Notes under the pieces: generated by a model
Told to the model about the DNA's origin: nothing
Database searches by the model: none
Seen by the model: only the letters and a program-made list of their open reading frames with translations
In this document: positions 7,401-41,900 of the stretch, one piece after another
Numbering within the stretch: the first letter of the stretch is position 1
Layout: every line of letters begins with the position of its first letter
Program-made: the position numbers and the translations under genes
Assembly: GCA_009760885.1 (NCBI GenBank)
Contig: CM019693.1
Coordinates: forward strand, 1,678,300-1,742,299
DNA from: Achatina immaculata
Taxonomy: Eukaryota > Mollusca > Gastropoda > Stylommatophora > Achatinidae
Length of the DNA stretch: 64,000 nt
Direction: 5' to 3'

Positions 7401-10400
7401 TGTTATGTGAAGAACTGTACATTCCTTAAAGCACAGACTAGCTTATTTACAGTGTACTGTGACTGCTACTTTGTTACACCTGCCTAAGGAAGATCCTTCA
7501 GATAAGATGCCCAGACAGCATCAGTAACGAAGAGCTATAGCAGAAAATGAACCAACCCACAGTGAAATAAATAATAATGAAAAGACACTGGAGACGGATA
7601 AGGCATACACTTTGAAAGCCTACCACTAACATAACCTGACAGGCTCTCACCTTGAATAACCAGGGCAGGAGGAAACAGAGAAGACCCAAAAACGCCTGGT
7701 GAAAGAGTCTTGAAGCAGAGATAAAAAAGATGGACTACATGTGGAGATGGACAGAAGAAGCAGCTCAGGACAGAAATAAACTGAAAGCCTTTGTTGAAGG
7801 CCTATGCCCCAGATATGGGTAAAGAAACTGTGGATGGATGGACGAATGGTGACTGCTACTGAAAAAGTAAACTTAAAATTTTTACTACTCTGATGACAGA
7901 TGCATGATGACCATGATGGTCTCAATTCCACTGTCTCATATAAAAAGCTAGTTCACTATGGGTGTGCCAATTCCTAAGCTTAAGTCTTAAATACTTTTCT
8001 CAAGTGAATATACTTGTGAAATGAGTTAAGGTATGAGCTTACAGTAAGGACCTCATATGTGTTTTTTTGTGTTTTTATTCAGTTAAATTATACATCCACC
8101 CGTGTGGTACCCGGGATCTGCAAAGAATAAGACCACTGTACCCTACCACGCATGATCGTAAAAGCCAACTAAGGAGGGTTTGGCATAGGGCCAGCAACCC
8201 TATCTGGTAAAAAAACTATCAGACTGCTACAGAAACGGAAGCAAGGGAAAAAACAAATGCAGGTGGAAGGAGAAATGCTTATCAGGAAACTGAGCCCATG
8301 AAGGTTGTGGATGAAAGCCAGCCACTGGAAGTCCCCAGCCCGACTGCAGACCTCCTGGAACCTAAACACAAGATGCAAATAGGCAGCTGGAATGTAAGAA
8401 CACTTAACCAGACTGGAAAACTAGCACAAACCATCAAGGAAATGCACAGATACAAACTAGACATACTAGGAATACAAGAAGCAAGATGGACAGGACAAGG
8501 CAGAAGGAAATTAACAACACAGCACACAGAAGATACAATAATATGGTCAGGTAAAGATCTTCATGAAGGAGAAGTAGCATTGATTATAACAAAAGAAGCA
8601 TCAAGAGCATTGCTGAAATGGACCCCAATAAATGAGAGATTATTATATGCAGGGTCCAACTCAAGATTCACGAAGCTGTCTATTATAGTTTGTTATGCAC
8701 CAACAGAAGCAGCCGAAGAGGAATTAAAAGAAGATTTTTACAACAGCCTCCAAGCCACAGTAGAAACAATACCCAAGCATGATATGCTACTCATCTTGGG
8801 CGATTTCAATGCAAAAGTAGGTGAGGGAAATGAAGATAGAAGAAGAATCATGGGAAAAGAAGGAATCTGAGAAATAAATGAAAATGGAGAAAAACTGTGC
8901 AGTTTCTGTGAAGAAAACATGATGACCATCGGAGGGACAATTTTCCAACATAAAAACATCCATAAAGTGACTTGGAGGTCCCCAGATAAAACCACAGAAA
9001 ACCAAATCGATCATATACTAATAAATAACAAGTGGAAACAGTCACTACAAGATGTGCGAGCAAGGAAAGGAGCAGATGTAGGAAGTGATCACAACCTTCT
9101 GGTAGCAAAAATAAAACTAAAATTAAGGAAAGCCAAAATTGGAGAACACAGAAAAATACATTTTGATACATGAAAACTGAAAGACCAGCAAACAAGGAAC
9201 GAATTCTCAATAGTACTTAAGAACCGCTTCAGTGTCTTACAAGATGAAGCAGAAATGTCCATACTAGAGTTCAATAAAACGCTACAGGAAACAGCAAAAG
9301 AGGTGCTGGGATATCGGAAACAGAGAAAAGAGGAATGGATAAGCAAGACCACATGGGAAAAGATAGAACAAAGAAAAGAAATCAAGAAAAAATTACTGAA
9401 CACCAAATCACAAAGGCTAAAAGAACAAGTTTTAAGTAATTATGCACAAAAAGACAAAGAAGTGAAGGAATCATGCCGTCAAGACAAATGTCAATACTAT
9501 GACAACTTAGCAGAAGCAGCAGAGAAAGCAGCATATGCAAATGACATGAAAACCATATACAAAATCACAAAGCAGATGACAGGTAACTTCAGCACAAGAT
9601 GTGACAGTGAAGTAAGGACACTAAAGGGACAATTGGTCAGTGGAGAAAGAGAAAAAACTGAAAGATGGAGGGAACACTTTAACACATTACTAAACAGAGC
9701 ACAAGCAGCACAAACAATAGACATACCTGAAGCAAAAATGGAACTAAACATCAATACAGGACCAATAACAATAAGTGAAGTAAAGGAGGCAATAAAGAAG
9801 CTAAAATTAGACAAGGCACCAGGTGAAGATGAAGTGACTGCTGAGATGTTGAAAGCAGATGAAACAGAAACACCAAAACAACTTTGCCGGATATTACAAC
9901 AAATTTGGGATCTAGAAAAAGCTCCAGAGGAGTGGAAAACTGGTCTTATAGTAAAACTACCAAAGAAGGGTGACCTCAGAGATTGCGGGAACTGGAGAGG
10001 CATTACCCTACTGCCACTCACCAGTAAAGTATTTTGCAGAATAGTCATCACCAGAATTGTATCAGCACTTGAAGGAAAACTTTGAAAAGAGCAGGCAGGA
10101 TTTAGGAAAGGAAGATCATGCATAGACCACATATTTGTACTTAGACAAATATTAGAACAGGCAAATGAGTGGCATAGCACAACATATGCATTGTTTATAG
10201 ATTTTGAGAAAGCCTTTGACAGTGTCAACAGAGATGCACTATGGATAATCCTAAGATGGCATGGCCTCCCCCATAAGATAGTGAATGTAATCAAAGCCCT
10301 ATACGAGGGTTTTCAGTGCAAAGTGATCTGTGGAGAACATACCTCCACCAGCTTTAGGGTATAAACAGGAGTGAAGCAGGGATGTGTACTATCACCAACA

Positions 10401-11771
10401 TTATTTATCTTGGCAATAGACTGGTTAATGAAGGAGGCAACATCAGACAAACGCAGAGGATTACAATGGACCCTCAACACAGTGCTGGAGGACCTTGACT
10501 TTGCGGACGACATTTGTCTACTGTCAAGCAGCCACAAAGAAATGCAAGATAAAATAAACAAGCTAACTCAGAATGCAAACAACATAGGACTAAAGATCAA
10601 TGTAGGAAAGACAAAGTTAATGAAACAAAATGTGAACAACAAAAATGTACTCAGAGTAGATAGCAAGTTAGTGGAGGAGGTCACTGAATTTGTATACCTT
10701 GGCAGTAGAGTAGTAGAAAATGGAGACAGCACAGAGGATATCAACAGCAGACTTACTAAAGCAAACCAGGCTTTTGCTATGCTACAGTTTTTTTTATTTC
10801 CATATGGAAATAAAAAAAACTAAGCGTAAAGACGAAAATCAGGATATTTAAGAGTAATGTTCTAAGTGTACTACTCTATGGAAGTGAATGCTGGAAAATC
10901 ACCAAAACAATAGAAAACAAGTTGAATTCTTTCCAGACTAAATGTTTACGAAGAATTAGAAAAATATTTTGGCCAAACACCATAAGAAATAACATCTTGT
11001 TGGCAGAGATGCAGATGAAGCCACTGACTGTAATTATTGAGGAAAGACGCTGGCGATGGTTGGGACATGTGCTCCGAATGACTGATAACTCACTACCAAA
11101 AACAGCACTAAGATGGACACCACAGGGGAACAGAAGTAAGGGTAGACCAAAAGAGACATGGAGAAGAACAGAGAGGATGTTGAGCAATAGAGGGCTCACC
11201 TGGGCAAGAGCAGAAAAAAAGGCAAAGGACAGGCATTTGTGGAAAACCCTTGCGGAAGCCCCATATACCCTGGGCACTTAAGGTTCAGAGAGAGAAATTA
11301 TACATAAGAGAGAAATGCACACAGTAGGAACAAAATTATATATATATAACACATACAGCGCTTAGTGTATATTAGAACAGAGGCACTCAAGTAGGAAAAA
11401 CCAGACAAAATACACTGACAACTACATGGAGTGGGGGAGCGGAACGGAGCAGGACATCCAAGTGGGAAAAAAACAAATTCCAATGTGGTTGGTGAATTTT
11501 TTTCCCCCATTTTCTGATACGCAAATGATGAGGTTAGGCATGGGACAACATATCGATGTAGGGTAAACACACCACGTTATCAACTCGCTGCCTGAAGAAA
11601 AACTTTATGTTAAGAACAGCTAGTCGTCATTAAAATAGCCTAAATGCACGACAATAGACTGTATTCAAAAAGACGATGTGGTAATAAAAACAGTATTCCA
11701 GTTAACTTGGAAATTAAAATATAAAATATATACGAACTGGAAAGCGCAGGTTTTCTTGCTTTTGGGGCCAT
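1440..11771 (-). CDS. RPL23A: 60S ribosomal protein L23a (uL23), five-exon gene
   Basis: Structural protein of the large ribosomal subunit; uL23 sits at the peptide exit tunnel and contacts SRP and nascent-chain factors. Exons at 11771-11738, 6885-6591, 4861-4685, 2316-2247 and 1454-1440 join in phase to about 196 residues. The C-terminal globular part is almost textbook: [74 protein letters not shown]-stop. Human L23a is 156 residues; the extra length is a Lys/Pro/Ala/Ser-rich, histone-H1-like N-terminal extension, also known from insect L23a. Introns of 4852, 1729, 2368 and 792 bp hold LINE, MITE and SINE insertions. Exons 2-5 are near certain; exon 1 rests on the MAPKA start, phase and a TOP-like 5' end. 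Confidence 0.93.
1607..1699. repeat. Two-copy ~46-bp tandem repeat in RPL23A intron 4
   Basis: Two adjacent, slightly diverged units each containing aaaatgatgtgac and cctataaaataactacta. The rest of intron 4 (1455-2246) shows nothing recognisable. Confidence 0.75.
2247..2316 (-). CDS. RPL23A: RPL23A exon 4
   Basis: Minus-strand acceptor ttttcttttcag, then A completing the split Arg codon, then [20 protein letters not shown] and ANK, then donor gtgagt. Length 70 = 1 + 23 codons, phase 0 at the 3' end. The segment corresponds to [20 protein letters not shown] in vertebrate L23a. Confidence 0.95.
2317..2789. other. RPL23A intron 3, proximal part
   Basis: Unremarkable intronic sequence between exon 4 and a LINE-B fragment. 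No repeat or gene recognised. The intron continues to 4684 through LINE, MITE and SINE insertions. Confidence 0.5.
2790..3750 (-). mobile_element. LINE-B fragment with internal deletion (antisense)
   Basis: Read on the minus strand: N-terminal RT region ([20 protein letters not shown], then [32 protein letters not shown]), then a jump from [12 protein letters not shown] to a segment carrying the complement of the [12 protein letters not shown] coding region near 3330-3375, then [20 protein letters not shown] and the 3' terminal region to TMRALCDI. The palm with motifs A-C is missing. It ends at 2790 at the same 3' terminus (tttaacagcacgggaagga, complemented) as the other B copies. Frameshifts and stops make it dead. 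It lies in RPL23A intron 3, same strand as the gene. Confidence 0.85.
3751..4012. other. Intronic stretch with a short minus-strand open frame, unrecognised
   Basis: On the minus strand 3780-3960 can be read as an open segment ([18 protein letters not shown], then [16 protein letters not shown]). I do not recognise it. It could be an old transposase fragment; nothing ties it to RPL23A. Confidence 0.3.
4013..4245. mobile_element. hAT-type MITE with 8-bp target duplication
   Basis: Element 4021-4237 begins cagtgattcttaa and ends ttaagaacaactg, imperfect inverted termini of the CAGTG...CACTG-like hAT class. It is flanked by atttaagc (4013-4020) and gtttaagc (4238-4245), an 8-bp duplication with one mismatch, the hAT signature length. 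It contains C-rich runs and no coding capacity. It sits in RPL23A intron 3. Confidence 0.7.
4246..4395 (-). mobile_element. SINE-2 tail fragment
   Basis: Contains tttccatgccattaag, gtgctaggcctgtatttc and aagatcatcagcata, which match the 3' half of the SINE-2 copies at 39970-40375, 51555-51690 and 55345-55790. Head and core are absent. Confidence 0.6.
4440..4605 (-). mobile_element. LINE-B 3' end fragment
   Basis: About 165 bp matching the 3' terminal region of LINE-B (cttacatccttcccatgccg... gagtttcacgtgg), ending at the same terminus as the copy at 2790. Short 5'-truncated insertion. Confidence 0.75.
4685..4861 (-). CDS. RPL23A: RPL23A exon 3
   Basis: Minus-strand acceptor ccgcag, then G completing Lys, 58 codons from [20 protein letters not shown] to [13 protein letters not shown], then AG and donor gtatgtaag. 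This is the core of the uL23 fold, with the NNTLVFIVD and [14 protein letters not shown] motifs nearly identical to animal orthologues. Length 177 = 1 + 174 + 2, matching the phases of both neighbours. Confidence 0.97.
4905..5535 (+). mobile_element. LINE-C 3' fragment with (GAT)n tail
   Basis: Degraded C-terminal LINE sequence: after position 5320 it reads [20 protein letters not shown], then [33 protein letters not shown] and a terminal HGT, followed by gatgatgatgat. This matches the minus-strand C copies at 18768 and 28666. The portion upstream of 5200 is noisier. It lies in RPL23A intron 2, opposite strand to the gene. Confidence 0.75.
5536..6174. other. RPL23A intron 2 remainder
   Basis: A-rich stretch (5545-5640), then mixed sequence. 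Short open frames on both strands look random. Nothing recognised. Confidence 0.5.
6175..6495 (-). mobile_element. LINE-E C-terminal fragment (inverted partner of 7490-7835)
   Basis: The minus strand carries a C-terminal LINE region: a decayed [15 protein letters not shown] segment, then a HWRWIG-like region, [14 protein letters not shown] and GRPR-like motifs. The copy at 7490-7835 is the same sequence on the other strand, with matching blocks for kedILQIR, SISNEEL and NNQGRRKQ. Confidence 0.7.
6591..6885 (-). CDS. RPL23A: RPL23A exon 2 (H1-like extension and start of uL23 core)
   Basis: Minus-strand acceptor tttctcag, 2 bases, 97 codons, then AA before donor gtaatt. It begins [20 protein letters not shown], a KESAP/KPP repetitive basic stretch of about 40 residues, then [38 protein letters not shown] and [12 protein letters not shown]. 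The second half is typical L23a ([19 protein letters not shown]); the first half resembles histone H1 tails and the extended N-terminus of insect L23a. It joins exon 3 by a split Lys codon (AA|G). Confidence 0.95.
6886..7489. other. RPL23A intron 1, part next to exon 2
   Basis: AT-rich sequence with poly-A and poly-T runs. No coding or repeat identity recognised. Confidence 0.5.
7490..7835 (+). mobile_element. LINE-E C-terminal fragment
   Basis: The plus strand reads [46 protein letters not shown] and [12 protein letters not shown], the usual LINE C-terminal [18 protein letters not shown] arrangement. It has in-frame stops and ends near gatggatggacg. It is the inverted counterpart of 6175-6495. 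Confidence 0.75.
8298..9173 (+). pseudogene. LINE-A endonuclease domain
   Basis: AP-endonuclease-like domain of LINE-A. The frame has a TGA at 8868 within KEGI-stop-EINENG and another at 9171 after HFDT. The catalytic signatures NVRTL (Asn), QEARWTG (Glu), GDFNAKVG (Asp, Asn), QIDHIL (Asp) and SDHN (Asp, His) are all intact. It is similar to the endonuclease captured in ruminant CFDP2, which derives from BovB. Confidence 0.85.
9255..11281 (+). pseudogene. LINE-A reverse transcriptase and C-terminal domain
   Basis: Same frame as the endonuclease as far as the insertion near 10790, then it shifts. Stops lie at about 10083 (GKL-stop-KEQAGF) and 10363 (FRV-stop-TGVKQG). The active-site box reads FADD, as is common in this clade. 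The C-terminal part ([15 protein letters not shown], then [15 protein letters not shown]) is the segment found again in the truncated copies at 13.5, 43.7 and 57.9 kb. Confidence 0.85.
11738..11771 (-). CDS. RPL23A: RPL23A exon 1 (coding part)
   Basis: Minus strand: ATG GCC CCA AAA GCA AGA AAA = M-A-P-K-A-R-K, the canonical start of animal L23a (MAPKAKK). The only donor in the right phase is A|gttcgt at 11738, a weak site; A+AG then makes Lys and leads into exon 2. A small extra exon could exist in the 4.85-kb intron. The start itself is well supported by the TOP-like leader just upstream. Confidence 0.7.
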
Positions 11772-13523: not shown

Positions 13524-14372
13524 GAACCTTAAGTGCCCAGGGCACATGGGGCTTCCGCAAGGGTTTTCCACAAATGCCTGTCCTTTGCCTTTTTTTTCTG
13601 CTCTTGCCCAGGTGAGCCCTCTATTGCTCAACATCCTTTCTGTTGTTCTTCTCCATGTCTATTTTGGTCTACCCTTACTTCTGCTCCCCTGTGGTGTCCA
13701 TCTTAGTTCTATTTTTGGTAGTGAGTTGTCAGTCATTCGGAGCACATGTCCCAATCATCGCCAGCGTCTTTCCTCAATAATTGTTGTCAGTGGTTTCATC
13801 TGCATTTCTGCTAATAAGATGTTATTTCTTATGGTGTTTGGCCAAAATATTTTTCTAATTCTTCGTAAACATTTAGTCTGGAAAGAATTCAACTTGTTTT
13901 CTATTGATTTGGTGATTTTCCAGCATTCACTTCCATAGAGTAGTACACTTAGAACATTACTCTTAAATATCCTGATTTTCATATTTATGCTTAGTTTTTT
14001 GGATTTCCATATAGTCTGCAGCATAGCAAAAGCCTGGTTTGCTCTAGTAAGTCTGCTGTTGATGTCCTCTGTGCTGTCTCCATTTTCTACTACTCTGCTG
14101 CCAAGGTATACAAATTCGTTGACCTCCTCCACTAACTTGTTATCTACTCTGAGTACATTTCTGTTGTTCACATTTTGTTTCATTAACTTTGTCTTTCCTA
14201 CGTTGATCTTTAGTCCTATGTTGTTTGCATTCTGAGTTAGCTTGTTTATTTTATCTTGCATATCTTTGTGACTGCTTGATAACAGACAAATGTCGTCCCC
14301 AAAGTCAAGGTCCTCCAGCACTGTGTCAAGGGTCCATTATAATCCTCTGCGTTTGTCTGATGTTGCCTCCTT
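13521..14372 (-). mobile_element. LINE-A copy, 5'-truncated (antisense)
   Basis: Minus strand from [11 protein letters not shown] to the C-terminal ALGT-stop and the ggcacttaaggttcag terminus. It includes [14 protein letters not shown] (active box FADD changed to FGDD), [16 protein letters not shown] and IEERRWR. It is largely open and clearly the same family as 8100-11312. It lacks EN and most of RT. Both ends touch (TA)n. Confidence 0.92.
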
Positions 14373-14393
14373 ATATATATATATATATATATA
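14373..14393. repeat. (TA)n tract at the 5' end of the LINE-A copy
   Basis: About 10 TA units between the truncated LINE-A 5' end and LINE-D sequence. Confidence 0.95.
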
Positions 14394-15464
14394 AGTTCTT
14401 GTAGTATAGATATATTTGTTCTTTTTTTGTGTCCATGATATTTGAAGAACTCTTCTGTAGCATTTACATTCAAAGGCATTTATGCGTTTCTCAGCTGTTT
14501 TGTTACGTGTCCAGGTCTCACAGGCATATGTTGTGATGGGAAAGATGCATATCCTTAAAAATCTTATTTTTGTGGTTCTTTCTGCTCCTCTCCATAGATT
14601 CTTTAGTTGTTTTAATTTCTGAAGAGCGATAGATGTCCTCCTTTTAATTTCCCTCATTGTATCTCCATTACCAGTTAGTAGTGATCAAAGATATTCAAAA
14701 CTCTCAACTTCTTCCAGTTTTTCCTCATTGATATATATTTAAGCTGCCTTGTTTGTTTTGTCAGTTGTCATCAATTTAGTTTTCTTCGCATTAAGATAGA
14801 GGTTTTGTTCTTCGCTGTTCTTTCAGACTGACATAATTAGTTTTTGCATTCCTTTTTGTGTTGTGGACAGTAATACTATGTCATCAGCATATCTAATCTC
14901 TGGTATTTCATAACCTCCAATTCTTATGGCATCGTAATATTCTTTGTTAACATCTTCTCTAACATTTCTCATTATATTTTCAGTATACGAGTTAATTAAA
15001 TAAGTAAGGTGACAATATGCACCCCTAACGGACCCCTTGTTTTATGTCAAACCAAGTTGTTGTTTCACCATTTATTCTTACTGCTGCTTATTGGTCTAGA
15101 TACAGCAGTGATGTTAATTATATCAAATATGTTGGAAATCCTATTTTTTCCATTATTTCCCAAAGTTTCTGGTGTTGTACACAATCAAGTGCCTTTGAGT
15201 AGTCTATAAATGCTAAATATAGATTCACATTAAACTCTCTGCATTTCTCTATTATTAATCTTATATTGAATATATGATGGTTCTAAGGACTGCAAACGCG
15301 CAACAAACAGCCTCTAGCAGTCAAGTCCAGCTCCTGGCCTTCCCGTGGCAGAACTGTTTAAACTGACAGGAGAAGGGGCGAGGGCGAATATCTGGCGCCT
15401 GAAAACCAGTTACTTAGGGTAGGTGAGTGTCACGTTTGGTAGCTCATCTGCCGCTGTTGGCGAG

Positions 15465-16140
15465 ATCTTCAGCTGCCGTGCGTGGAGCGGTGCTCTTCCC
15501 GGCCAATGAAGAAATTTGCAAATGAGGTTGCCGCGCAGCATCACTGCGGAAAAGGCGGTTGAAAGGATAAAGCGAAGCAAACAGTCAAATCACGGCACCT
15601 CTGGTCTGGAGGTCGGCCACGTCCTGAGTGCAGTCATATCGGGTGAAATGCATGAACCGGCTTGTCCCAGAGGTTAAGTCACTGCTGGCTTGACTCTTCA
15701 AATGCCGCGCGTGGAGTGAAGCTCCTCCCGGTTAAGGAAGTAAATGCGGAAATAAAGGTTGCTGTGCGGCGCCGATGGGAAAAGGTGGTGGAAAGTGAAG
15801 TTTAACCTGGTATGTCCAGTAGTATCACTACGAGAGCTATACCACGGCGCCTCTGCTCTAGAGGCCACCTACGTCCGAAATACACCTACACTGGTGAAAT
15901 ATGCCTAAACCGGCACACACCAGGGTGGAACTCGATGGCTAGACATGTCATGCCACCTCCGCTCTAGAGGTCGGTAACGCCTGATAAACACCCATACTGG
16001 TGAATTTTGCCTAAACCGGCTCATACCAGGGGTGAATCTTGAAGGCTATGAATGTCACAGTACCTCTGCCCCAGAGGTCGGTCCCGTCCCAAACACGCCC
16101 ATACTGGGAAATGCCTAAACCGGCTCAACCCAGGGGTAGA
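15465..16140 (+). repeat. Element X tandem array 1
   Basis: Repeating blocks: ctgccg-cgtggag units at about 15470 and 15698, and cctctgctctagaggtcgg units at 15596, 15848, 15954 and 16063, each followed by a tactggtgaa/aaaccggct motif. The last three are spaced 106 and 109 bp. Units are diverged but aligned by eye over most of their length. Confidence 0.75.
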
Positions 16141-16261
16141 AGTCACTAGTGGCGAGGATTCATCCTCCTGGACAAAAGCTCCATCCTGGTCACAACTAGG
16201 AAGGGTAGCGGCCACGACCGCAAAATGCTGAAGTCGGAGACACTGGACCAGGGAAGTCTAG

Positions 16262-16525
16262 ATAGGCAACCACCTCTCACCCGGCGGGGATGTCTGCGTA
16301 TCCTAATCACGCTGAGGTTTTCCGGTGAGAAAGTCCAACCCTGGACTGGATGGCAACCACCTCTCACCCGGCGGTGATACACGGGTATCTCAAAACACGT
16401 CGAGGTTTTCCAGTGAGAAAGTCCAACTCTGGCCTGGGTGGGCTAACGCCTCTCACCCAGCGGGGATGCACTGATATTCCAAACACGTCGAGGTCTTCCG
16501 GTGAGAAAGTCCAACCCTAGACCAA
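16262..16525 (+). repeat. Element X tandem array 2 (three ~88-bp units)
   Basis: Three units starting cctctcaccc at 16273, 16360 and 16449, each with gcggggatg-like, acgtcgaggttttcc and ggtgagaaagtccaac segments. Confidence 0.85.
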
Positions 16526-17174
16526 ACTGGTGCAATGAAAACCACGGTGTCACGCAATCCCGCTTCCGAGACCCACCAAGAATACAGGCTAAAGCACTGT
16601 GATACTCTGAACCCCTTGTGGTCCTTTCGTGGAACTCGTGTGGTCTATTTTGGACCACACAGGAGACCACGGGACCTAACGAGGACCACATGCGTGAATT
16701 CAGTAGGTTCACAGTGCGGTTTTTGGTGGTAGAAGTGAACGAAGAAGAAGAAGAAGAATATATGATCTCTTGATTCTCTTCCTTGCCTGAAACCAGCATG
16801 GACCATATTGACTTCTTCTTCTATTTTCTTACGAAGTCTACCCATTATGATTTTTAACAGAATTTTACTGGCATGACTAATCAGGGCAACAGTTCCGTAG
16901 TTTGTGTATAATTTCAGGTTATCCTTTTTTGGCAGAGGTATGAGTACAGTTCTTTTCCATTCTTTTGGCCAAATACCAGAATGCCATATCTTTTTACATA
17001 GTGCATGATAGATTAGTGCACATTCCTTTCCTCCTGCTTTAATAAGTTCAGCTGTTATCTCATCACATCCTGGTGAGTTACCATTTTTCAGATTCTTTAT
17101 TGCCCATAAAACTTTTTCTATTGTCGGTTCGAGTTCTTTCTCCTCCAATAATAATTCACACTGTATATTGTTTG

Positions 17175-17690
17175 ATGGCTGTTACCAGAAAATCAGATTT
17201 GCCTCTGTGGTTGGGGGGCCATTGAAATGATTTGGGACTGGTTTCGAAGCATGCTGGGTGATATCGTACATATGTTTCTGCATGCGGTCCCATAATCTGA
17301 GACCAATCTCACCAGTATACGTTGTTCTGCATCTTTTGCATACGATGATATATATCACATTACGGAGCTCGCACGTGAATCCTTCATGAAGAGTGAGGAT
17401 AGTTTTCGGAAAGGTGATTGTTTTCATTTCGCAGACTACAGAGCAGATAACGCAGTGGGGGCAGTTACATTTTCTGATAATTATTGGCAGATGACGATAA
17501 AGAATTTTCGTGACCATCTGACCATGCGGGTGGAAAGGCAGTATAACTTAACTCTATCCGATGGAGTAACAGGCTTTTTTTTTTCTGAATGCTTCTTTGC
17601 GGCTCACTATGAAAGTATGAGAGTGAGATGAGAATGTATAAATGAAAAGCATACAGCATCCGATATTTCGGCGTGAGCCTTTTTCGATGA
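17175..17690 (-). mobile_element. Penelope-like element fragment with GIY-YIG endonuclease
   Basis: Minus-strand frame 17517-17182: CNCPHCVICSVVCEM, then ELRNVIYIIVCKRCRTTYTG, EIGLRLWDRMQKHMYDI, KPVPNHFNGPP. This is the layout of the C-terminal GIY-YIG domain of Penelope-like retroelements (Cys pairs, VIY in place of GIY, YTG for YIG, Arg, His, late HF). Upstream frames are broken, and a segment near 17660-17690 (complement of tatttcggcgtgagcc) resembles the terminal repeats seen beside such elements. RT domain absent. Confidence 0.75.
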
Positions 17691-18767: not shown

Positions 18768-21700
18768 TCATCATCATCGCCATGCTGACTGGCGTTGGCT
18801 AATAAGCTTCTCAAGAGTACTCAATCCTTCATGCAGGCCATTAGCTCAGTTGGTGATCTCCTCTCACACCATCTCGTCAGACTGTCCAGTATAATTTCTC
18901 TCGATCTTCCCCTGGCTCCTCTTTCCTCTATTTTTCCCGTCGTTATAATATTTAATTATTATTTAATGTTTAATATTGAAGAGGGGGCATTGAAAATATT
19001 ATAACAACAGGAAAAATAGAAGGAAGAAGATCGAGAGGAAGACTAAGAGAAATGATACTGGACAGTCTGACGGGATGGTGTAGGAGGAGATCACCAACTG
19101 AGCTGATGGCCTGCATGAAGGATCGTGTACTCTGGAGAAGAATAATAGCCAACGCCAGTAGGCACGGCACCTGATGATGATGATGATAATATTTTTAATG
19201 CCCCCTCTTCTCATTGCATGTCCTATGAAAGTATATTGTCTCTCTCACTCTTATTTTTTTTACAAGATTTTTTTTTTGGTCTCTCCAGCTCTTCTCATAC
19301 ATTCTCCATTAGTTATTTTTGCTGTCCAGGGAATTTGCAACATTCTTCTAATAAACCACATTTCTACTGGTTCCAATGATTTTTGTGCAGACCTGCCTAT
19401 TGTCCATAATTCACTTCAGTATAATACAATAGGTTCAGTATAACATTTCAGGACTCATTTTCTAACATTAATTGATAGGGATGTATTGCATAATATGTGT
19501 CACATTCTCTGAAATGCAGTCTTTGCATCATCCTATTCTATTCCTAATTTCTGTTCTGCATTTCCCATCTGAAGTTATTACTGCTCCAAGATATTTGAAT
19601 TTCTGGACCTGCTTTAGAATAGTTTCATTTAATTTTATACTGCATTTTGGTGGATTCTGTTTCTTAGATATAACCATATTATCTGTCTTCTTGATGTTTA
19701 AAGTAAGGCCTTTCTGTTCACTTTCTTTGGCGACTTTATCCAAGAGATTTTGCAGGTCTTGTTGTTTCTCAGCTATCAGTACTGTGTCATCAGCATATCG
19801 AAGGTTGTATTGTATCCTCTGACTTTTATATCTGGTTCTGTAATGATCGTTCTTAGAATATTCTCACTGTACAGAGAAAAAAGGTCTGGAGATAGTACAC
19901 ATCCCTGTCGCACCCATTGTTTTATAGGTTTGATATTTTCCAGTTTTATTTTCAACTCGAATTGCTGCTTCCTGCCACCAGTATAGATGTTTTACAATCC
20001 TCAGGTCTTTGCTGTCTGTGTGGATGACTTCAAACATTTGAATAATCTCTTCATTTTCACCTTGTCGAATGTCTTAGTGTAATCAGTGAAGCATAAGTAG
20101 AGATCTTTCTGTACTCTTAAAGCTTTTTCTGTTAGTGTTCGTAAAGCATAAATGGCATGGTGTGTTCCCTTTCCCTTAACAAATCTGAACTGTTCATCTG
20201 GTATTTCTATTTTTATCTTTTTTTCCTTGTTCTTCTCATAATAATTCTCAAAAGTAGCTTTGTTATATGACATGAGAGGTTGATAATTCTATGGTTCTCA
20301 TATTCCTTTGCACCTGGTTTGTTTAGTAGTGCTATAAATGTGGATTTAAGCAAGTCACTGGGCATATAACCACTGTTACAAATGTCATTCAGTAACGTGG
20401 TTATTATTTTTATTCCTATCTCCTCTAGTGCCTCTATTTCTTCTATTGTTACATTATCAGGCCCAGTTGCTTTTCCTTTCTTCATGTCTTTGATGACATC
20501 TGTGATTTCATCTTCAAGTATTGGTGGTCCATCATAGTTTTCAGTATCAGGTGTTAATTCTGTTCTTCCTCCTCCATATAGCTCACTGATGTACTCTGTC
20601 TTCTTTTTCTATTAACATTTTACCTTCTTTTGATTTCAGGCATCCTGTGGTATATTTTGTCTTCCTGCCTGTAAGTTCACTAATTCATTTGTGCATGTTT
20701 TTGCTGTCTTTATTATGAGAGTCCTCTGTTTGTCTGCACTGTTCATTTAACCACATTTCCTTTGCTTCTCTGCATTTGCGTCACATTTCTTTATCTATCC
20801 TGCTATATTTTTCTTGGTTATTTTTACTCCTCCTCCTCTTGTCCATCAGTCCCAAGATGTCATCTGACATCTATTTATTCTTAGTGGCCTTTTTTTTTTC
20901 AGTGGTATTATCTCCTTTACAGTTTGGTGGATAGAATCTCTTAACATTGCTCATTGTTCATCTATACTATTTATCTTTGCTATTGCATTGTATCAATTTG
21001 TTTTAATAACTCTGTAGTGTTCTTGCAGTTCTTGGTCATTTTTAATGAGTTCTGTGTTCAGTTTGATGTTTCTCACTTTTCTGCCTGCTTTCTTTAGCTT
21101 TATTCTAATTTTTCCACACAGTGAGTCATGGTCACTACTGCACTCAGTTCCTGGCATGGTTTTTGTTGTCTGTAATGCATTCCGGAATCATTTGTTGATT
21201 AATACGTAGTCTGTCAGGTTAAAAGTCTTTTTGTCTGGGCTGCACCACATTGCCAGTATTCAGGGATGTTTAAACCAGGTGTTTCCTACAACCATGCTGT
21301 GTATTTTTGCCCATTCAGTTAATTTACTACCTCTGTCATTCCTCTCCCCCAGTCCATAATCGGCAACGATATCTGAAGTTCTTCCTTTACCAACTTTGGC
21401 ATTAAAATCTCCCATGACTATAGTAACTTCATGTGACTTTGTGTGTTTCAGAGCTGTCTCTATGTCATTATAAAATAGCTGTACATCTTCTTCAGAACTA
21501 TCAGCTATTGGAGCATACACTTGTATAATATTTATTGGTCGTCCTTTTAGTTGGGCTAACAGGACTGGGTCCGAGATGTTCAAATATCCAATGACTGTCC
21601 TTGCTGTTTGTTCGTCAAGTAATATTCCTATTCCTCGTTTATGTTTCTCACCTCCTGAATATATTATTGTATATTTATCAGAGTTTATCTTCCCTGCACC

Positions 21701-22150
21701 TGTCCATCTAACTTCACTCATTCCTAGTATGTTGATCTTCATCCTTTCCATTTCCCTTTTTACATTTTCTGATTTTCCAGGCTGGAATAGAGTTGTAACA
21801 TTCCATGTTGGTATTTTGAAACTGTTAGTTTTGCCACCAGTGGCGTGATGATGATCTGGCCTCACCTGCGGCTCGTGAGCTGCCCTACCGGACGAGGCTG
21901 TTCCAAAGGAACATCCATTAATGTTGTTCGTGATGAATCTGTTACTTTGTATAAGCATAACTATTCTTGGGAGCTACACCAGTAGTTTCTCATTGCCTTC
22001 TATCAGCTTGTGGATGGAGTCTCCACTAGCCTGTAGACTCCCCGTCCTGTACACATGTAAAGGCAGCGGGAGTGAAGGATTTTAAGGCACCTCTTACCCA
22101 CCTAGTGTTCCCTTCACTGACCACATGAGGCACTTTAGAGTAGTATTAGT
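18768..22150 (-). mobile_element. LINE-C, nearly full-length BovB/RTE-like element (antisense)
   Basis: Minus strand: 5' UTR-like part to about 21960; endonuclease 21958-21260 ([51 protein letters not shown]); RT around 20485-20000 (KGKATGPDNVTIEEIEALEE, STFIALLNKPGAKEYENHR, FRFVKGKGTHHAIYALRTL, FTDYTKTFDKV); thumb 19743-19528 (LTLNIKKTDNMVISKKQ, VQKFKYLGAVITSDGKC); a C-terminal HGT end and a gatgat tail at 18768. Numerous frameshifts. Split near its 3' end by an inverted partial copy of itself (18965-19185). Confidence 0.9.
18965..19185 (+). mobile_element. Sense LINE-C 3' fragment nested inside the antisense LINE-C
   Basis: Plus strand: [27 protein letters not shown], then [19 protein letters not shown] and [16 protein letters not shown], then gatgatgatgat. 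The surrounding antisense C element resumes just after. An ataatattt-like sequence on both sides suggests a short target duplication. Confidence 0.85.
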
Positions 22151-24302: not shown

Positions 24303-27300
24303 GTAAGAAGCATGGACTGTTGTCATAGTTTGAATGATGTGTGAGATAGATATTGTCTCGAATGTTGTCATTGCCAGCTGTACCGGAGCTCACCGTCTTC
24401 AAAATCTGCATTTGTTTACCCACACCGCACATATCAGGAGATAACATAGATGTAGTTAAGGTTACCAGACATCCTGGCTTGACAGAGTTTGTCCCAGTTT
24501 GAGAGTCCATACCTGATGTCCCAGCCAGTCATGGTTTTGTCCATGTTTTGATTCAGATGGGTAGTCATACCTGTATGGACTAAATTTATTGGGTTAATTT
24601 TAACAGTTTCAGTGGGCTATATTTTATGCCTGTTCAAACACAAAAAAGAGAAAGAAAAGAAAAGAGAAACACACGCAAAATGCATGTTCACACCCAGAGA
24701 GAGAGGAGGAGGATTTGTTGCAAGTCCCAGTTTTCCAAAGAGGAAATCTGGTAAACCTAGAAATAGTAACTTTTTTTTTTTTTCTCTTGAGAAGTTTTTC
24801 TTGCATGTATGCATCTTTGACCCCAGACAATATATTTTACTCGATACATTTTATCTGAAAACTTTCTTTGTCATATATTAAAATGATCTGTGTTGCTGGC
24901 AGATTACATTTCTCTCTCCCCTCTCTCTCTCCCCTCTCTCTCTCTATCTCTTTCTCTCCCCCCCCCCCTCTCTCTCAAGTAATTCAGTAGAGTGATTGCA
25001 TGACCAAATGCTTCAAAAACTAATTTCTCACTTCTGTAATGACTGGGTTAGCGTTTGTTTTATTTTATTTACTGTAGCCATACTATTTCACGTTTGTGAT
25101 AACGCTTTCCTATTTTGTGTAATCCTTGGCATTTCTAGTTAGACAGGTTGTCTTTCTGTTTTCCCTCTATGCCACTTTGTAAGCTGTTCAAAGTATTTTA
25201 CCTTGGTCTTTTTTTTTTCTGTTTTACCTTTCTTCATTGTTTTCAGATTGTATTGTTGAAGTTTGTTTCAAAGCATGAATGATTTCACAATGAAAGCTTA
25301 GTTCATCTATGGGTTATGTTCTTGAATATCATGCACAGTTTAAAATCACGCATAATGTAAACAGTCACTTGAAATGTAATAAATGGCTTGTGAGAGTAGC
25401 TTGTTTTCTAACATTTACTGTCACTAGTATTTACATTTTGTGGTCATAGGTAGTTTCGGAGTAGTCTTGGTTCTGTATGTTCCTTCCAGTTTGGACAAGA
25501 TAGATGGTGTAAGAATGTTTTAGGCTAACATGGGAAATAGAGAGTTGGCTTGACCACTCCTGAATGCTTGAAAAAGGAGCAAAGAGTTTTTTGTTTTTTT
25601 TTTGCACTCTGTAGGTTCTCAGCCAACAGCTCATTTATAGCAAGCTCTTAATGGAAAAACCTGTGGATGTCGAGAGCATGGTCTTAGTCAGTTCATAGAT
25701 GTAGAACTTTGTCCAAAAGAATTTATGTTTTTTGTCCCTAGACTAAACTGGTGCAATGAAAACCACGGTGTCACGCAATCCCGCTTCCGAGACCCACCAA
25801 GAATACAGGCTAAAGCACTGTGACACTCTGAATCTCTTGTGGTCCTTTCGTGGATCTAGTGTGGTCTATTTTGGACCACACAGGGGACCACGGGACCTAA
25901 CGAGGACCACAGGCATGAATTCAGTAGGTTCACAGTGCGGTTTTTGGTGGTAGAAGTGAACGAAGAAGAAGAAGAAGATGTTTTTTGTGTTCCTGTGCTG
26001 CCAGGCACTTTTCTTCTTCTCAGTCTGGATGTCCCATAGTGCTGTCTCTTCCCCCCACAAGACTCAAAGTAAGAGTGATTTCCCATGCCCACTTGCCATC
26101 ACTTCCACCAGAATTATGAAACCCTCCACTAGTTATAAAGGTAAAGGTAATCCTGTCATGCCTTAGAGGTGCATAGGGATATGGTGTTAGTGCCCATATT
26201 TTTCTTGACCTGTCAGCACACTAAAGGGTGATATGGTCAGTATCACGCCTGGCCGCCTTTCCTTCTCCAACTCCAGAAGTCAAGTACCCATTTCTACAGC
26301 TGGGTGACTGGGGTGCCTCCGGCCGCCAGTGCACTAAACACTTCACCACTCAGACACTCACTAGTTATAAGGACAAAAATAATAAAGTACCTTCATTTAA
26401 TTTATTGAAGTTGTTTACCATCCATGTTTTATTTATTAATTAATTTTTTGAATTTTTTGTTTGTTTTTTTGTTTTTCAAATTTTTTCCTTCTTTATGTCC
26501 TGTGCCAGATGATGTTGGCCATCTTGCTTCTCCATCTTGTGCAGCCCTTGGTGTACCCGATCATTTCAGATGCTTTTCTTTTTCAGTGACACTTGGTCAG
26601 TCCGGCGAAAATATTTTTTTTATCCATCTCCTTTTTTTTTGTCTCGATATTTTCCAGTTGTTACCAAGTTGGCTGACTTCTGTCTTCTCGTGATATGTTC
26701 AAGAAATTTTCTTATGGAGTTCAAAGTCATTGTGCATTGTTCAGGTGTACATTGTGCAGGTGTTCAGAATTAAGGGAAATATATCCAGATCACATGTTTC
26801 AGTGAGATGGCAATCATTCCCAAGTTTTATTTCAACAGTTTCCATTTACATTGGACAACAGCTGCATCAGACTTATCGTGGAAGAATATACTTGTTCCAT
26901 CTTAACTGTTGTTAGATTTTTATAGCAAGGGGAAAAAAAGGCCATTTTTGGTGCGTGATTCTTCATTATTCTGCATCATATTTATGTTGATCTCCATTTT
27001 TTTTTCTTCATCATTTGGTTAGATATCGACACCAGTTTCTCACAGATGTGGCAGTCTTGTCTCTGGTTTTCCACAGCTCCACAGAGCTTCCTCTTTTGGG
27101 ACTGGGGGGGGGGGTGGTGGTCTGGTCAGGTTGGTCTGGGTTGTGTAGGTGGCATCTCGGTGGATATGCTGTGCTGGCATCTCGGTGGATATGCTGTGCT
27201 GGCATCTCGGTGGATATGCTGTGCTGGCATCTCGGTGGATGTGCTGTGCTGTCTGGCTGTCTGCCCTCCATTGAGATCTAAGCTGTATGTGTTGCTGTGG

Positions 27301-30300: not shown

Positions 30301-33300
30301 AGTATCAGTTGTGTCAGAAGTATTTTGCAAGGTCATTTTGAATAGACTTAAAGATATAGTGGGTACCGCAATGAGAGAAGAACAAGCAGGATTTCAAAAA
30401 AGGGAGAAGCTGTCTCGACCAGATCTTTACTCTAAGAATAATACTTGAAGAACATATTGAAAAGCAGAAATCATTAATACTGAACTTCATAGACTTTAAA
30501 AAGGCATTTGATAGCATACACAGAGATTCATTGTGGAGAATTTTTTAAGCCTATCTGGAATATCATCTAAAACTGTCAACATCATTAAGGACCTCTACAA
30601 TGGATATGCTTGTGAAGTCAAAACAGAAGAAGGGATGACTGAATGGTTCCAGATTGAAACAGGCATGAAACAAAGATGTATACTGTCTCCTTTGCTTTTT
30701 GAAATTGCGGTAGACTTCATAATGAAAAAAATGCTGCACAAATAACATAGGTATTGATAGGATATTTGGGACCCAACTAGAAGATCTTGATTTTGCTGAT
30801 GACAAAACTCTTATCGGTAACATTGTGAATTCCATGCAAGAAAAAACAGATATCCTGTCTTCACTGGCTAGCAAAATAGGACTTGAAATTAACAAGGACA
30901 AAACAAAAATAATGAAACTTCCCGTTAATCAAAATGGAAAAATACACGTAGAAGGGACAGATGTTGAAGAAGTCAGTCAATTTGCATACCTTGGCAGCTA
31001 CATAGACTAGGATGGTGACACCAGAAAGGAAATTAGAATTGGAAAAGCAGCATCAATCTTCAAGAATCTTGAGAACATAATGACATTCAAAAGTTATAAG
31101 CACAAAAATCAAGTTGATGGTTATTCAGTTCAAATGGAATATTCACCCTCATTTATGCATTTGAAAGCTGGAAAACAACTAAAGAAATAGACAATACATT
31201 AGACTCTTCTGAAAATAAGTGCCTAAGGAAAATACTCGGCATTAAGTGGAACGAGTTCAAGAACAATGTAGAGACAAGACTTACTCTACGGGCTTACAGT
31301 GGGAAGAATGTGGTCATCTTGAGGTGTTACGATCAGTCGATATACTGAGTGACAGAAACTCCTTCTCGTCATCATCATCATCATCCAATGCCAGATATCT
31401 ACAGGCAGGGCTTAGTAGAAACATTGTGTAAATCTGTGCAAAACTCCCGTTCCATCTGTCGCCCAACGAACTACCCTCCCCCCCCCCGACCCTCTAGACC
31501 CACCCTTGGCACAAGGGAAAACCTCATGGGCCCGAAGAGATGCATCGGCTGGACCCTTCTCCCCACCTCCCCCTAAAAAGGCCTCCATACAGACCAATGT
31601 TTACCCATGTCTTCTTTCGTCATTACTCGACTGGCCATTTAAAGACATCAGTTAATGAAACTTTGGCTGTGGGGAGGGACTAGCTTATTGTGAATTATAC
31701 CTGATTATTATACAGCATGGTAAGGAATTTCGGTGGTGGGAAAGGGGGTTGTTAGTTCAGGGTTAGAAAAAAAATATGAAGATGTAACGCGTCAAAATGA
31801 TGGAAAAAGAAATGAAAATGCTGGCATGGCTATTTTAACCGAGTTAGTTACTTCTCAAAGGCTTGCACGGTGGTGGCGACTGCAAACTTAAGTACCCCAC
31901 TACACCCCTAAAACTTCCAGTGGAAACTTGGATTTACCTGTAAGTGACAGGGAATAATATAACTAAATTTGGCGATTTGAAAAAAAAAATGACGTTTAAT
32001 CCTTTCACTCTAGAACAATAGTACCAGGACTGGTGTCATAGAAGAAGGTGGAAAATATCATGGTGGGAAAATGGGCAGCAAACATCCTGGCAGATCACTA
32101 CAGAGATGAGAACATCACAAAATCCCCAAAAAGACACGTGCGGGAAGTAAAAGCAGAGCTTAAAGGAAGGATTAAACAGCAAAATCCAGACCCATGCATG
32201 AATGCAGCATTGACCATAGAAGAATTCAGTAAGGCTACACAAAAACTAAAAGACAAGAAATCACCTGGAAAAGACGGAATAACAAGTGAAATGATAAAGA
32301 ACCTGGGACCAGCAGCAGAAACAGCCCTCCTTCACATCTACAACCAGTCCTTCACATCTACCACCAGTCCTCCTTCACATTTACCACCAGTCCTCCTTCA
32401 CATCTACAACCAGTCCTTCACATCTACCACCAGTCCTCCTTCACATTTACCACCAGTCCTCCTTCACATCTACAACCAGCCCTCCTTCACATCTACAACC
32501 AGCCCTCCTTCACATCTACAACCAGTCCTCCTTCACATCTACCACCAGTCCTCCTTTACATCTACCACCAGTCCTCCTTCACATCTACCACCAGTCCTCC
32601 TTTACATCTACCACCAGTCATCCTTTACATCTACCACCAGTCATCCTTCACATCTACAACCAGTCCTCCTTCACATCTACAACCAGGCATCCTTCACATC
32701 TTCCACCAGCCCTTCTTCACATCTACAATCAGCCCTCCTTCACATCTACCACCAGCCCTCCTTCACATCTACAACCAGTCCTCCTTCACATCTACCACCA
32801 GTCCTCCTTTACATCTACCACCAGTCCTCCTTCACATCTACAACCAGTCATCCTTCACATATACCACCAGCCCTCCTTCGCATCTACAACCAGCCCTCCT
32901 TCGCATCTACCACCACTCCTCCTTCACATTTACAACCAGTCCTCCTTCGCATCTACAGTCAGCCCCCCTTCACATCTACAATCAGTCCTGGAGCTTCAGA
33001 AAATTTCCCGACAGATGGCGAGAGACAATCATCACTCCCATCAGAAAAAAAAAAGAAAAAACAAACACAACAAATCCAGCTACAGACCTATCAGCCTCTT
33101 AAGCTGCATGAGCAAAGTGATGGAAAGGATGGTCAACACCTAGAAAAAAGTCACCTGATAAATCACCTGTGACAGTGCGCAGTCAGCATACAAGAAACAT
33201 CACAGCACAGAATACCAGCTCACCTACCTAACCCAAAAAATAGAAAACTCTTTCCAGGAGAAGAAAAAAGTTCTGGCCACTTTTGTAGACCTAACACAAG

Positions 33301-38989: not shown

Positions 38990-41900
38990 AGGCCTGTACG
39001 ATATCCTTCATCATTGTTCATTCCACACGCGGTGTCTTCTTCATTGTTCATTCCACACACGGTGCCTTCTTTGTTCATTCCACACACGGTGTCTTCTTCA
39101 TTGTTCATTCCACACGCGGTGCCTTCTTTGTTCATTCCACACGCGGTGTCTTCTTCATTGTTCATTCCACACACGGTGCCTTCTTCATTGTTCATTCCAC
39201 ACACGGTGTCTTCTTCATTGTTCATTCCACACACGGTGCCTTCTTCATTGTTCATTCCACACACGGTGTCTTCTTCATTGTTCATTCCACACGCGGTGTC
39301 TTCATTGTTCATTCCACACACGGTGTCTTCTTCGTTGTTCCTTCCACACACGGTGTCTTCTTCATTGTTCCTTCCACAAACGGTGTCTTCTTTGTTCATT
39401 CCACAAACGGTGTCTTCATTGTTCATTCCACACACGGTGTCTTCTTCATTGTTCATTCCACACACGGTGTCTTCTTCATTGTTCATTCCACACACGGTGT
39501 CTTCTTCATTGTTCATTCCACACACGGTGTCTTCTTCATTGTTCATTCCACACACGGTGTCTTCTTCATTGTTCATTCCACACACGGTGTCCTCTTCATT
39601 GTTCATTCCACACGCGGTGTCTTCTTCATTGTTCATGATTTAAATCCGACTGGTACTGTTATTTATTGCAGTTTTATTTGTTTTCAAGACGTGCTGTATC
39701 AAGTCTACCAGGTTAAAAAAAACAAACCTCCCCTGTTGTCCTAGTTCATGTTTGCTTTACATTGTTTTCCTCTTACCCCAATAAGCACTCTTCGAGAAAG
39801 AGTTCGGGATTAGTTTTGGAAGGAGATAAGGTTAGTTATAATTTGAGCGTAGCAAGCGGTATAAACAAAACATTCAGGGACATTGGGTTGGTAAGCCGAA
39901 GACTCCGCGAAAGATAACAGGGGGAAACAATAACAAATCCGGTGTTTAGGTTAGGTGTCTGTTTTTGTGAGGTGTCCCTGGTTAGGCGCTCGGTCTACTA
40001 ATTCAGCGGTACCGGGTTCAAATCCCAGCAAGTGGATGTTTTTTTTTTCTTTTCTGGTACCACTACACACCAGAAAGGCCCCCCCCCCCGGGGTCACACA
40101 GCCTCTAAAAATGGGTTCATTCATTCATTCCTTTGCATGTCCCTTGCGGAACTTTGCCTCCCAAACAGCACTCCTGTAGGCCTCTCGGTTGTGAGCAAGA
40201 TGGCCTGCTACCAGAGAAATATGGGAAGGTACATGCGGCCAGGCGTGATACCGACCATATCATACTTTCATGTGCCATAGGTTGTGGACATACGGGCCTG
40301 ACACCCCGTCCCCAGTATGCCTTAGTGGCATGGAAACGGGTATTTTATCCTTATCTTACCTATATTTTGTGGTAAAAAAAGGTAAGGTAAAGGTAATCCT
40401 GTCATGCCTTAGAGGCACATAGGGATATGGTGTTAGTTCCCATATTTTCCTTGACCTGTCAGCACACTAGAGGGTGATATGGTCAGTATCACGCCTGGCT
40501 GCCTTTCCTCCCCCAACTCCAGAAGAAGTCGGGTACCCATTTCTACAGCTGGGTGACTGGGGTGCCTCTGGCCGGATTCGAACCCCCGACCTTCGCCATG
40601 AGAGACCAATGCACTAACCACTTCGGGGGGGGGGGATATACAGTGGGGATGAGATTGGATTAGTCATTTGGCGGAAATCATGGAGGCCAGGCGTGTCATA
40701 TGGTGTATGTATTTATGTGTGTATATGTATGCTGATATTTATTGTGTGTATGTGTTATGCGGTATGTGTATATGTATACTGATATTATATATATATATAT
40801 ATATTGGTGTATGTGTTTATATTCACATATAAATAAAATGTCGGCATACGTGTATTTGTATGCTCGTATATGTTTTTTTTTAGATGAGTAGTAGGATGAG
40901 CGAAGATGCATGCTGTAGTGTGATGGCAGGCACCTTGCTCCGTCTCTGTTCGTTCTCATGCTCAGTCTGGCGAACAGGACAGGGCATGGCGTGGTTCACA
41001 TGGTAGTGGAGCCTGTTGAAAAGCTTGGTTTTTTTTTTGGGGGGGGGGGAGTGTGGTAAACATGCTACCGTAACCCAGTCCCAATTAGATACGATGCTCG
41101 GCGGTATATCTGTAAAGATAAAAGAGTGGTGGTTCTTTGTGTTGTCTCCCCTTTGCCTTACAGACCGCATTTCCAGCGTCCTCGAAACCGTTTTTCGCTC
41201 AGCTGGTTCTCTGGAATCTTCCCACTACCCCATGTTTGGAACCGCCGAAGTAGAACACCAACAATAACAACACGAATTAACAGAAAATGTCGTGATACTG
41301 TAAAAAGCCGAACAGCCTGCGTCTTTTTGGTTGACATGTAACAACTGAAGGCGATCAGCCTCTTGTGCATAAGAGATTTCAATACGGAGATAGTTTTGTT
41401 GGTCCTCACACGCAAGAACAGAACTTAGGAGAGGAACAGTAGCTGGAGGGTCAGTGCAGCAGGGAGATGAGAGGAGAACAAATATTGTAGGATTAAACCT
41501 CGAAAAAATCGTAGACAAAGCACTTTAGTGAGACGTGAGAGAAAGAAAAATCACAAGAGAATTACCTGGGATTCGAACACGGACTCCGGTAGGACGAGCA
41601 GCCGTCTAGCCACGAGAGAACAGCGTACTATCGACTTAGCCAACTAGCACCCCAATAAAAGGTGTTTTGTTGACATAGTCTTTAGTAACTGCTCAGCAGA
41701 CATGAGAGATCGTGACACCCGGAAAGAAACGAGGTCGTGACACACAGAAATTCCGTAGCTTAGATTCATTCTCTCTAGCAGGTACCAACTAGACAAACAT
41801 ACACACGGTCTCCTGCCATGTCTGGTGCAAACTTGAACAACAATAACAAACGAACGAATACTTATTACATGAAGTTAGTTTCAGGTATAGTTTTAAGGAA

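Follow-up and report, generated by a model that had tools for sequence, protein, structure and literature searches.

Element X, a sequence of 1.48 kb in the window analysed here (a stretch of 64,000 nucleotides from the Achatina immaculata assembly), represents a young non-autonomous LINE-type (target-primed) retrotransposon family without a protein of its own, and some of its 5′-truncated copies carry a piece of pre-rRNA in front of the element. Judging from the rRNA-element junctions, the source of these leaders was very probably the insertion of element copies into rDNA.

The copy in the window is a real insertion with exact 11-bp duplications (Table 1). The duplicated 11-mer, GAATATATGAT, occurs just twice in the 64 kb, at 15268-15278 and at 16756-16766 (0.03 occurrences expected), and when the element is excised with one duplication kept, the joined flanks read RQGRESRDHIF-NIRLIIEKC, restoring the LINE-D frame. 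The element has a GC content of 53.4%, as compared to 39.0% in the rest of the window (the highest of 597 other 1477-bp windows reaches 46.8%), and is also CpG-richer; its longest stop-free frame is 98-103 codons. A reading made earlier from the letters of the window (the sequence-only reading) had described the duplications, the restored frame, the GC-rich composition and the absence of a convincing ORF, and all four are borne out.

Element X is built, in order, of a 5′ domain, the units A1, B1, A2 and B2-B4, a spacer, the units C1-C3, a 3′ hairpin, and a GAA tail (Table 1; element positions are given as el). Tandem Repeats Finder (TRF) and self-BLAST confirmed the arrays of ~107-bp and ~88-bp units noticed earlier, and in addition revealed two older ~110-bp repeats (A1 and A2) and a fourth, 5′-lying unit of the 107-bp type (B1). 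The hairpin before the tail also exists, but the 8-bp stem attributed to it is merely the tip of a long imperfect hairpin of ~177 nt, whose stability was equalled in none of 200 shuffles (z −6.0); 13 windows of 200 nt over the rest of the element gave z values from 1.4 to −2.9. Covariation in the 3′ hairpin is uninformative (among the 40 copies, 12 consistent one-sided changes, 31 broken pairs and no two-sided change), and comparison of the two copies in the window gave weak evidence, one pair being changed on both sides. The folds of the units showed one two-sided change for B and none for C.

Table 1. Features of the two element copies in the 64-kb window (window positions).
Feature	Position	Strand	Basis or remark
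Left target-site duplication, GAATATATGAT	15268..15278	.	Sequence match
Element X, full-length copy, el 1-1477	15279..16755	+	Within minus-strand LINE-D; 19/40 genome copies begin at el 1-2
5′ domain, el 1-172	15279..15450	+	In 19/40 copies; intact in 0/30 leader-bearing copies
Hairpin, el 141-173	15419..15451	+	−13.8 kcal/mol (40-copy consensus); el 173/174 at its foot is the start of 20/40 copies
A-B-A stretch	15454..15810	+	A1 ~15454-15570, B1 ~15575-15690, A2 ~15680-15810; A units ~74% alike
107-bp array, units B2-B4	15836..16150	+	TRF, self-BLAST
88-bp array, units C1-C3	16265..16528	+	TRF
Long 3′ hairpin	16561..16737	+	65 pairs, −80.8 kcal/mol, z −6.0; copy 2 z −6.9
(GAA)n tail	16741..16755	+	Sequence
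Right target-site duplication of element X	16756..16766	.	Sequence match
Left target-site duplication of copy 2, ATGTTTTTTGT	25725..25735	.	
Copy 2, 5′-truncated to the last ~240 bp with tail	25736..25977	+	Member of another subfamily (~95% identity with that of element X)
Right target-site duplication of copy 2	25978..25988	.	

We searched the whole assembly (1.65 Gb, 145 contigs) with element X and scored the best 40 of 2,750 first-look candidates (41 matches listed); all family counts are lower bounds, and proportions hold among these best matches, not genome-wide. In keeping with a pulmonate gastropod as host, the best matches of the assembly's mitochondrial COX1, among the 120 of 7,675 hits listed, are named eupulmonate snails and slugs (84-88% in the first ten rows). 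Forty genome copies were compared (in two batches, of 30 and 10; 41 with copy 2, the second copy in the window). Alignment of the 40 copies, a check proposed by the sequence-only reading, placed the 5′ termini at el 1-2 or el 173-174 (el 134 in one copy), and showed GAA-type tails before the right duplication in 40 rows (a few with impure units) and target duplications of 10-18 bp in 40 of the 41 copies (12 or 13 bp in 25/40). The exception to the scripted search for duplications, L043, consists of a full and a partial copy (el 861-1479) head to tail inside one duplication, and may have arisen by a template jump or by nested insertion into the GAA tail. A nick motif, WTY/R (nick at the slash), is common to the copies: the third base before the nick is A/T in 36/40, the last before it T/C in 38/40, and the first after it A/G in 39/40 (the leader lengths of eight copies were entered by hand in this script). 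The 40 copies have 40 different flanking sequences, and so are not confined to the 28S R2/R1 site. They diverge from their class consensus by 0.2-1.9%, with CpG transitions making up 128 of 406 substitutions. The duplications, tails, 5′ truncation and common nick motif support the earlier proposal of a nonautonomous element moved by LINE-type copying, and target-primed retrotransposition is almost certainly how it moves. At L044, a further repeat end carries a tail of the (ATG)n type instead of GAA.

The element might be an internally deleted, SIDE-like derivative of a LINE that shares both of its ends, arrays included. This reading, which is compatible with an origin of the leaders in rDNA, accords with the long structured 3′ domain, the discrete 5′ end and the lack of a long ORF. 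However, among the best ~40 matches listed for each of the searches with element X and copy 2 there were only element copies and no LINE with these ends, and we regard it as a tentative possibility. No partner LINE was found: when 273 kb were scanned for insertions with a GAA tail, no hit was recognised as a LINE end. Outside the A. immaculata genome we found no protein-level match and, in viral contigs, no 21-mer match; three exact 16-mer matches outside the genome are probably due to chance.

The 5′ ends fall into two classes. Of the 40 best-scoring copies, 19 start at el 1-2 (full length); the truncated class (21/40) comprises 20 that start at el 173-174 and one that starts at el 134; an older copy, L046 (92.7%), likewise begins at el 175. 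The start cluster at el 173/174 is real, because any copy truncated within el 2-172 would outrank those cut at 174 in a list of best matches, from which copies cut further downstream than el 174 may be absent. Both classes belong to one family, since their consensuses differ at two sites only. The cluster lies at the foot of the el 141-173 hairpin, where we infer that reverse transcription is arrested; 13 of the 20 copies that start there have no leader, and their origin depends on this assumed stop.

Pre-rRNA leaders, that is, pieces of 5′ETS that mostly run into 18S, stand between the left duplication and the element in eight of the 40 copies (L020, L022, L025, L029, L032, L036, L037 and L042). 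They are confined to truncated copies (8/21 vs 0/19 full-length copies; Fisher p 0.0036). Rfam recognised 18S in 3/5 and 6/8 of the leader loci scanned, and the remainder were identified by BLAST to L025; a ninth leader-bearing copy, L045, adjoins L007. In a search with the ETS only, the best 40 of 1,766 first-look candidates were scored and are spread over nine contigs; all 21 places retrieved from these 40 lead into element X, although they comprise top-listed and plus-strand places and are not a random draw. They were retrieved in two batches (8 and 13): in the first, 8/8 reach element X, and in the second, 12/13 do so within the 1.8 kb retrieved and L064 once a downstream piece was added. 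For example, L054 is interrupted at el 739, L061 reaches element X after further 18S, and L064 comprises ETS, then 18S as far as the last position of the model, followed by el 429-1479. The 18S leader of L064 is split by a U2 snRNA-like insertion (L064:995-1216, minus strand; 50.3 bits, Rfam RF00004), perhaps a U2-derived SINE.

The leader starts are also clustered: among 30 leader-bearing copies, 20 begin at pre-rRNA position (pre) 1/2 and eight at pre 65/66, with L042 at 460 and L065 at 30 (for L022 and L063, the piece beginning with the ETS start was counted). The two clusters look as RNA 5′ ends would, and suggest two pre-rRNA 5′ ends for A. immaculata, separated by 64 nt, of which one may be the Pol I start and the other a processing site or second start. 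L022 contains pre 2-547, then pre 2-130, and then the element, all inside one duplication, and looks like a leader-bearing copy that passed through rDNA again (two rounds). At L063/L071 (C2:8606400-8614140), an 18S stretch (pre 731-1208, 100% identical) stands directly before the leader; it may belong to an rDNA unit, be a dispersed piece of 18S, or form a single insertion with the copy. A greater conservation of leaders than of elements (273/300 pairs among 25 copies) was considered and rejected, since 17 of the 25 copies had been chosen by leader similarity; the eight element-side copies show no clear difference.

The restriction of leaders to copies that lack an intact 5′ domain would also be expected if full-length copies lost their rRNA leader by self-cleavage, with the first 172 nt acting as an R2-like ribozyme. 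It fits, too, that nearly all of the 19 full-length copies begin with GG at el 1. However, an internal promoter accounts for the same pattern, Rfam gave no match above chance, none of el 1, 173 and 174 satisfies a strict HDV-like descriptor (which 17/200 shuffles pass), and the apparent covariation between the A units is not beyond chance (643/2000 shuffles). We consider a ribozyme unlikely, although these negative results may leave room for an unfamiliar type.

The junctions between rRNA and element bear on the origin of the leaders. If a leader-bearing copy derives from a former rDNA insertion, its junction marks where a target duplication ended, and the nick motif is expected one duplication length before it; random template jumps would yield rRNA ends that bear no relation to the nick site of the element. 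We built a weight matrix for the nick motif from 31 leaderless sites and applied it to 15 distinct junctions, set by hand from BLAST ends, with the rRNA-rRNA junction of L022 left out. The motif is found 10-14 nt before the junctions (mean score 3.34 vs −0.81 expected; 0/100,000 random sets as good), and this excess persists without the hot spot described below (again 0/100,000) and in other junction sets (12 junctions, 0/20,000; 16 junctions, 0/100,000). There is no excess at 15-19, 20-24, 25-29 or 30-34 nt upstream, and a weaker one nearer the junction (5-9 nt, 1,049/100,000 with 15 junctions; 0-4 nt, 4,812/100,000 with 16 junctions). L029 and L060 have no motif, so that two of the 15 junctions do not fit. 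Because of the motif at 10-14 nt, the junctions look like former rDNA insertions and the RNA like Pol I read-through. In addition, 14 of the 30 leaders end at a hot spot in 18S, TTTT/ATTAGTTCAAAAC (nt ~219-222), where they are joined to el 134, 173, 174, 175, 301 or 409; this reads as repeated independent insertions at one 18S site with different truncations.

Alternatively, reverse transcriptase could have jumped from the 5′ end of the element RNA onto pre-rRNA fragments during insertion (or the RNAs could have been ligated), with no copy ever in rDNA. Jumps of R2 to U12 snRNA and tRNA are described (PMC3414825), and both L022, with its two tandem pre-rRNA pieces, and L043, with its two element copies, combine two pieces in one insertion. 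However, such jumps would not lead one to expect the nick motif of the element at 10-14 nt before the junctions, or the joining of one rRNA position to six element starts, and we think it improbable that they produced the leaders.

Taking the leaders as derived from rDNA insertions, we propose an account that we hold, as a whole, to be probable, in which LINE-driven copying, rDNA insertion and Pol I transcription together would produce the spread of rRNA leaders. A LINE whose endonuclease prefers the nick site would use the GAA tail and 3′ hairpin as the place to start copying. Full-length copies would arise from RNA with a 5′ end of its own at el 1, and reverse transcription would often halt at the hairpin foot (el 173/174), which would yield copies that lack the 5′ domain. 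Some of these truncated copies would insert into ribosomal RNA genes, with the hot spot at 18S nt ~221; Pol I would transcribe rRNA-leader-element RNAs from them; and the LINE machinery would spread these RNAs genome-wide, leader included. Here, Pol I as the polymerase, the partner LINE, the 5′ end at el 1 and the stop at the hairpin are all elements that we infer. The rDNA may well act as a revival site, at which truncated, otherwise silent copies in the 5′ETS/18S come under Pol I transcription and are dispersed as chimeras with rRNA leaders, sometimes repeatedly, and as a main source locus for a family that is dispersed and not rDNA-specific; this is a reading that we favour with some reserve. 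If the leaders come from rDNA, copies of element X are predicted to follow TTTTATTAGTTCAAAAC in 18S or to lie at the other junctions; no rDNA unit that contains a copy was seen.

Truncated retrotransposon copies are usually counted dead on arrival, and here they seem to regain expression via rDNA. If true, this would provide an explicit source of rRNA-like pseudogenes that seeds the genome with pre-rRNA pieces, a readable record of rDNA insertion sites, perhaps homogenised since, and a tractable case for how non-autonomous elements gain promoters. We found no report of rRNA-leader chimeras of dispersed elements in the open-access literature searched.

Several known kinds of element share features with element X. 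SINEs mobilised by stringent LINEs are likewise non-coding, with a simple-repeat tail, a 3′ structure and target duplications; element X differs in being 1.48 kb long, with three kinds of tandem unit and neither a tRNA gene nor an above-chance Rfam head (ARAGORN, 0 tRNA genes; Rfam heads sub-threshold, E 0.57 and 1.8), and a SINE head of the Pol III type (tRNA, 5S or 7SL) was rejected. A DNA transposon (MULE, hAT or MITE) was also rejected: the element has no inverted pairs of ≥12 bp, and its ends, GGTTCTAAGG and (GAA)n, are not complementary. SVA-type composite retrotransposons are non-autonomous and GC-rich, with internal tandem arrays and 5′ transductions, as is element X, which, however, has no poly(A) tail, no recognised SINE or LTR part, and a constant number of units. 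All 40 copies contain four B-type and three C-type units, although variants in array number could have been missed among copies chosen as the best-scoring against the window copy. The earlier description of the arrays as variable is thus not supported, and it is very doubtful that they serve as promoter monomers of variable number, like those of certain LINE 5′ UTRs, despite their presence in a GC-rich, CpG-richer element.

Closest to element X in logic are the R2 SIDEs and R2/R1 hybrid SIDEs of Drosophila, which are protein-less non-LTR elements moved by the machinery of another element and co-transcribed with rRNA (PMC3414825). Element X resembles them in lacking a protein, in borrowing its machinery and, if Pol I transcribes it as proposed, in its co-transcription with rRNA. 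R2 SIDEs sit at the 28S R2 or R1 site, whereas element X is dispersed; and their 5′ ribozyme cuts off the rRNA, whereas element X, negative with Rfam and with the HDV-like descriptor, keeps its 5′ETS-18S leader. For R2, template jumps by which new 5′ sequence is gained are also described (PMC3414825).

Copy 2 is 96.3% identical to the last 241 bp of element X, and has an 11-bp duplication of its own and the same kind of tail. A genome search with copy 2 gave, as the best of 1,296 first-look candidates, 39 scored places besides itself, at 427/432 bits over 239 bp. Three of these places were retrieved: two are full length and share 95.3-95.6% identity with the first consensus, whereas the third is cut off at el 952.

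The window contains other repeats. We identified LINE pieces at 8211-11281 (plus strand), 13755-17181 (minus) and 21260-21973 (minus), with Pfam matches to endonuclease (8211-8870 and 21263-21973) and reverse transcriptase (10365-10823 and 13758-14336). The region 26135-26370 resembles a separate SINE. Large minisatellites, with units of 23, 30 and 15-42 bp, are located at 32322-32989, 39006-39636 and 53254-53804, respectively, and each is open in several frames.
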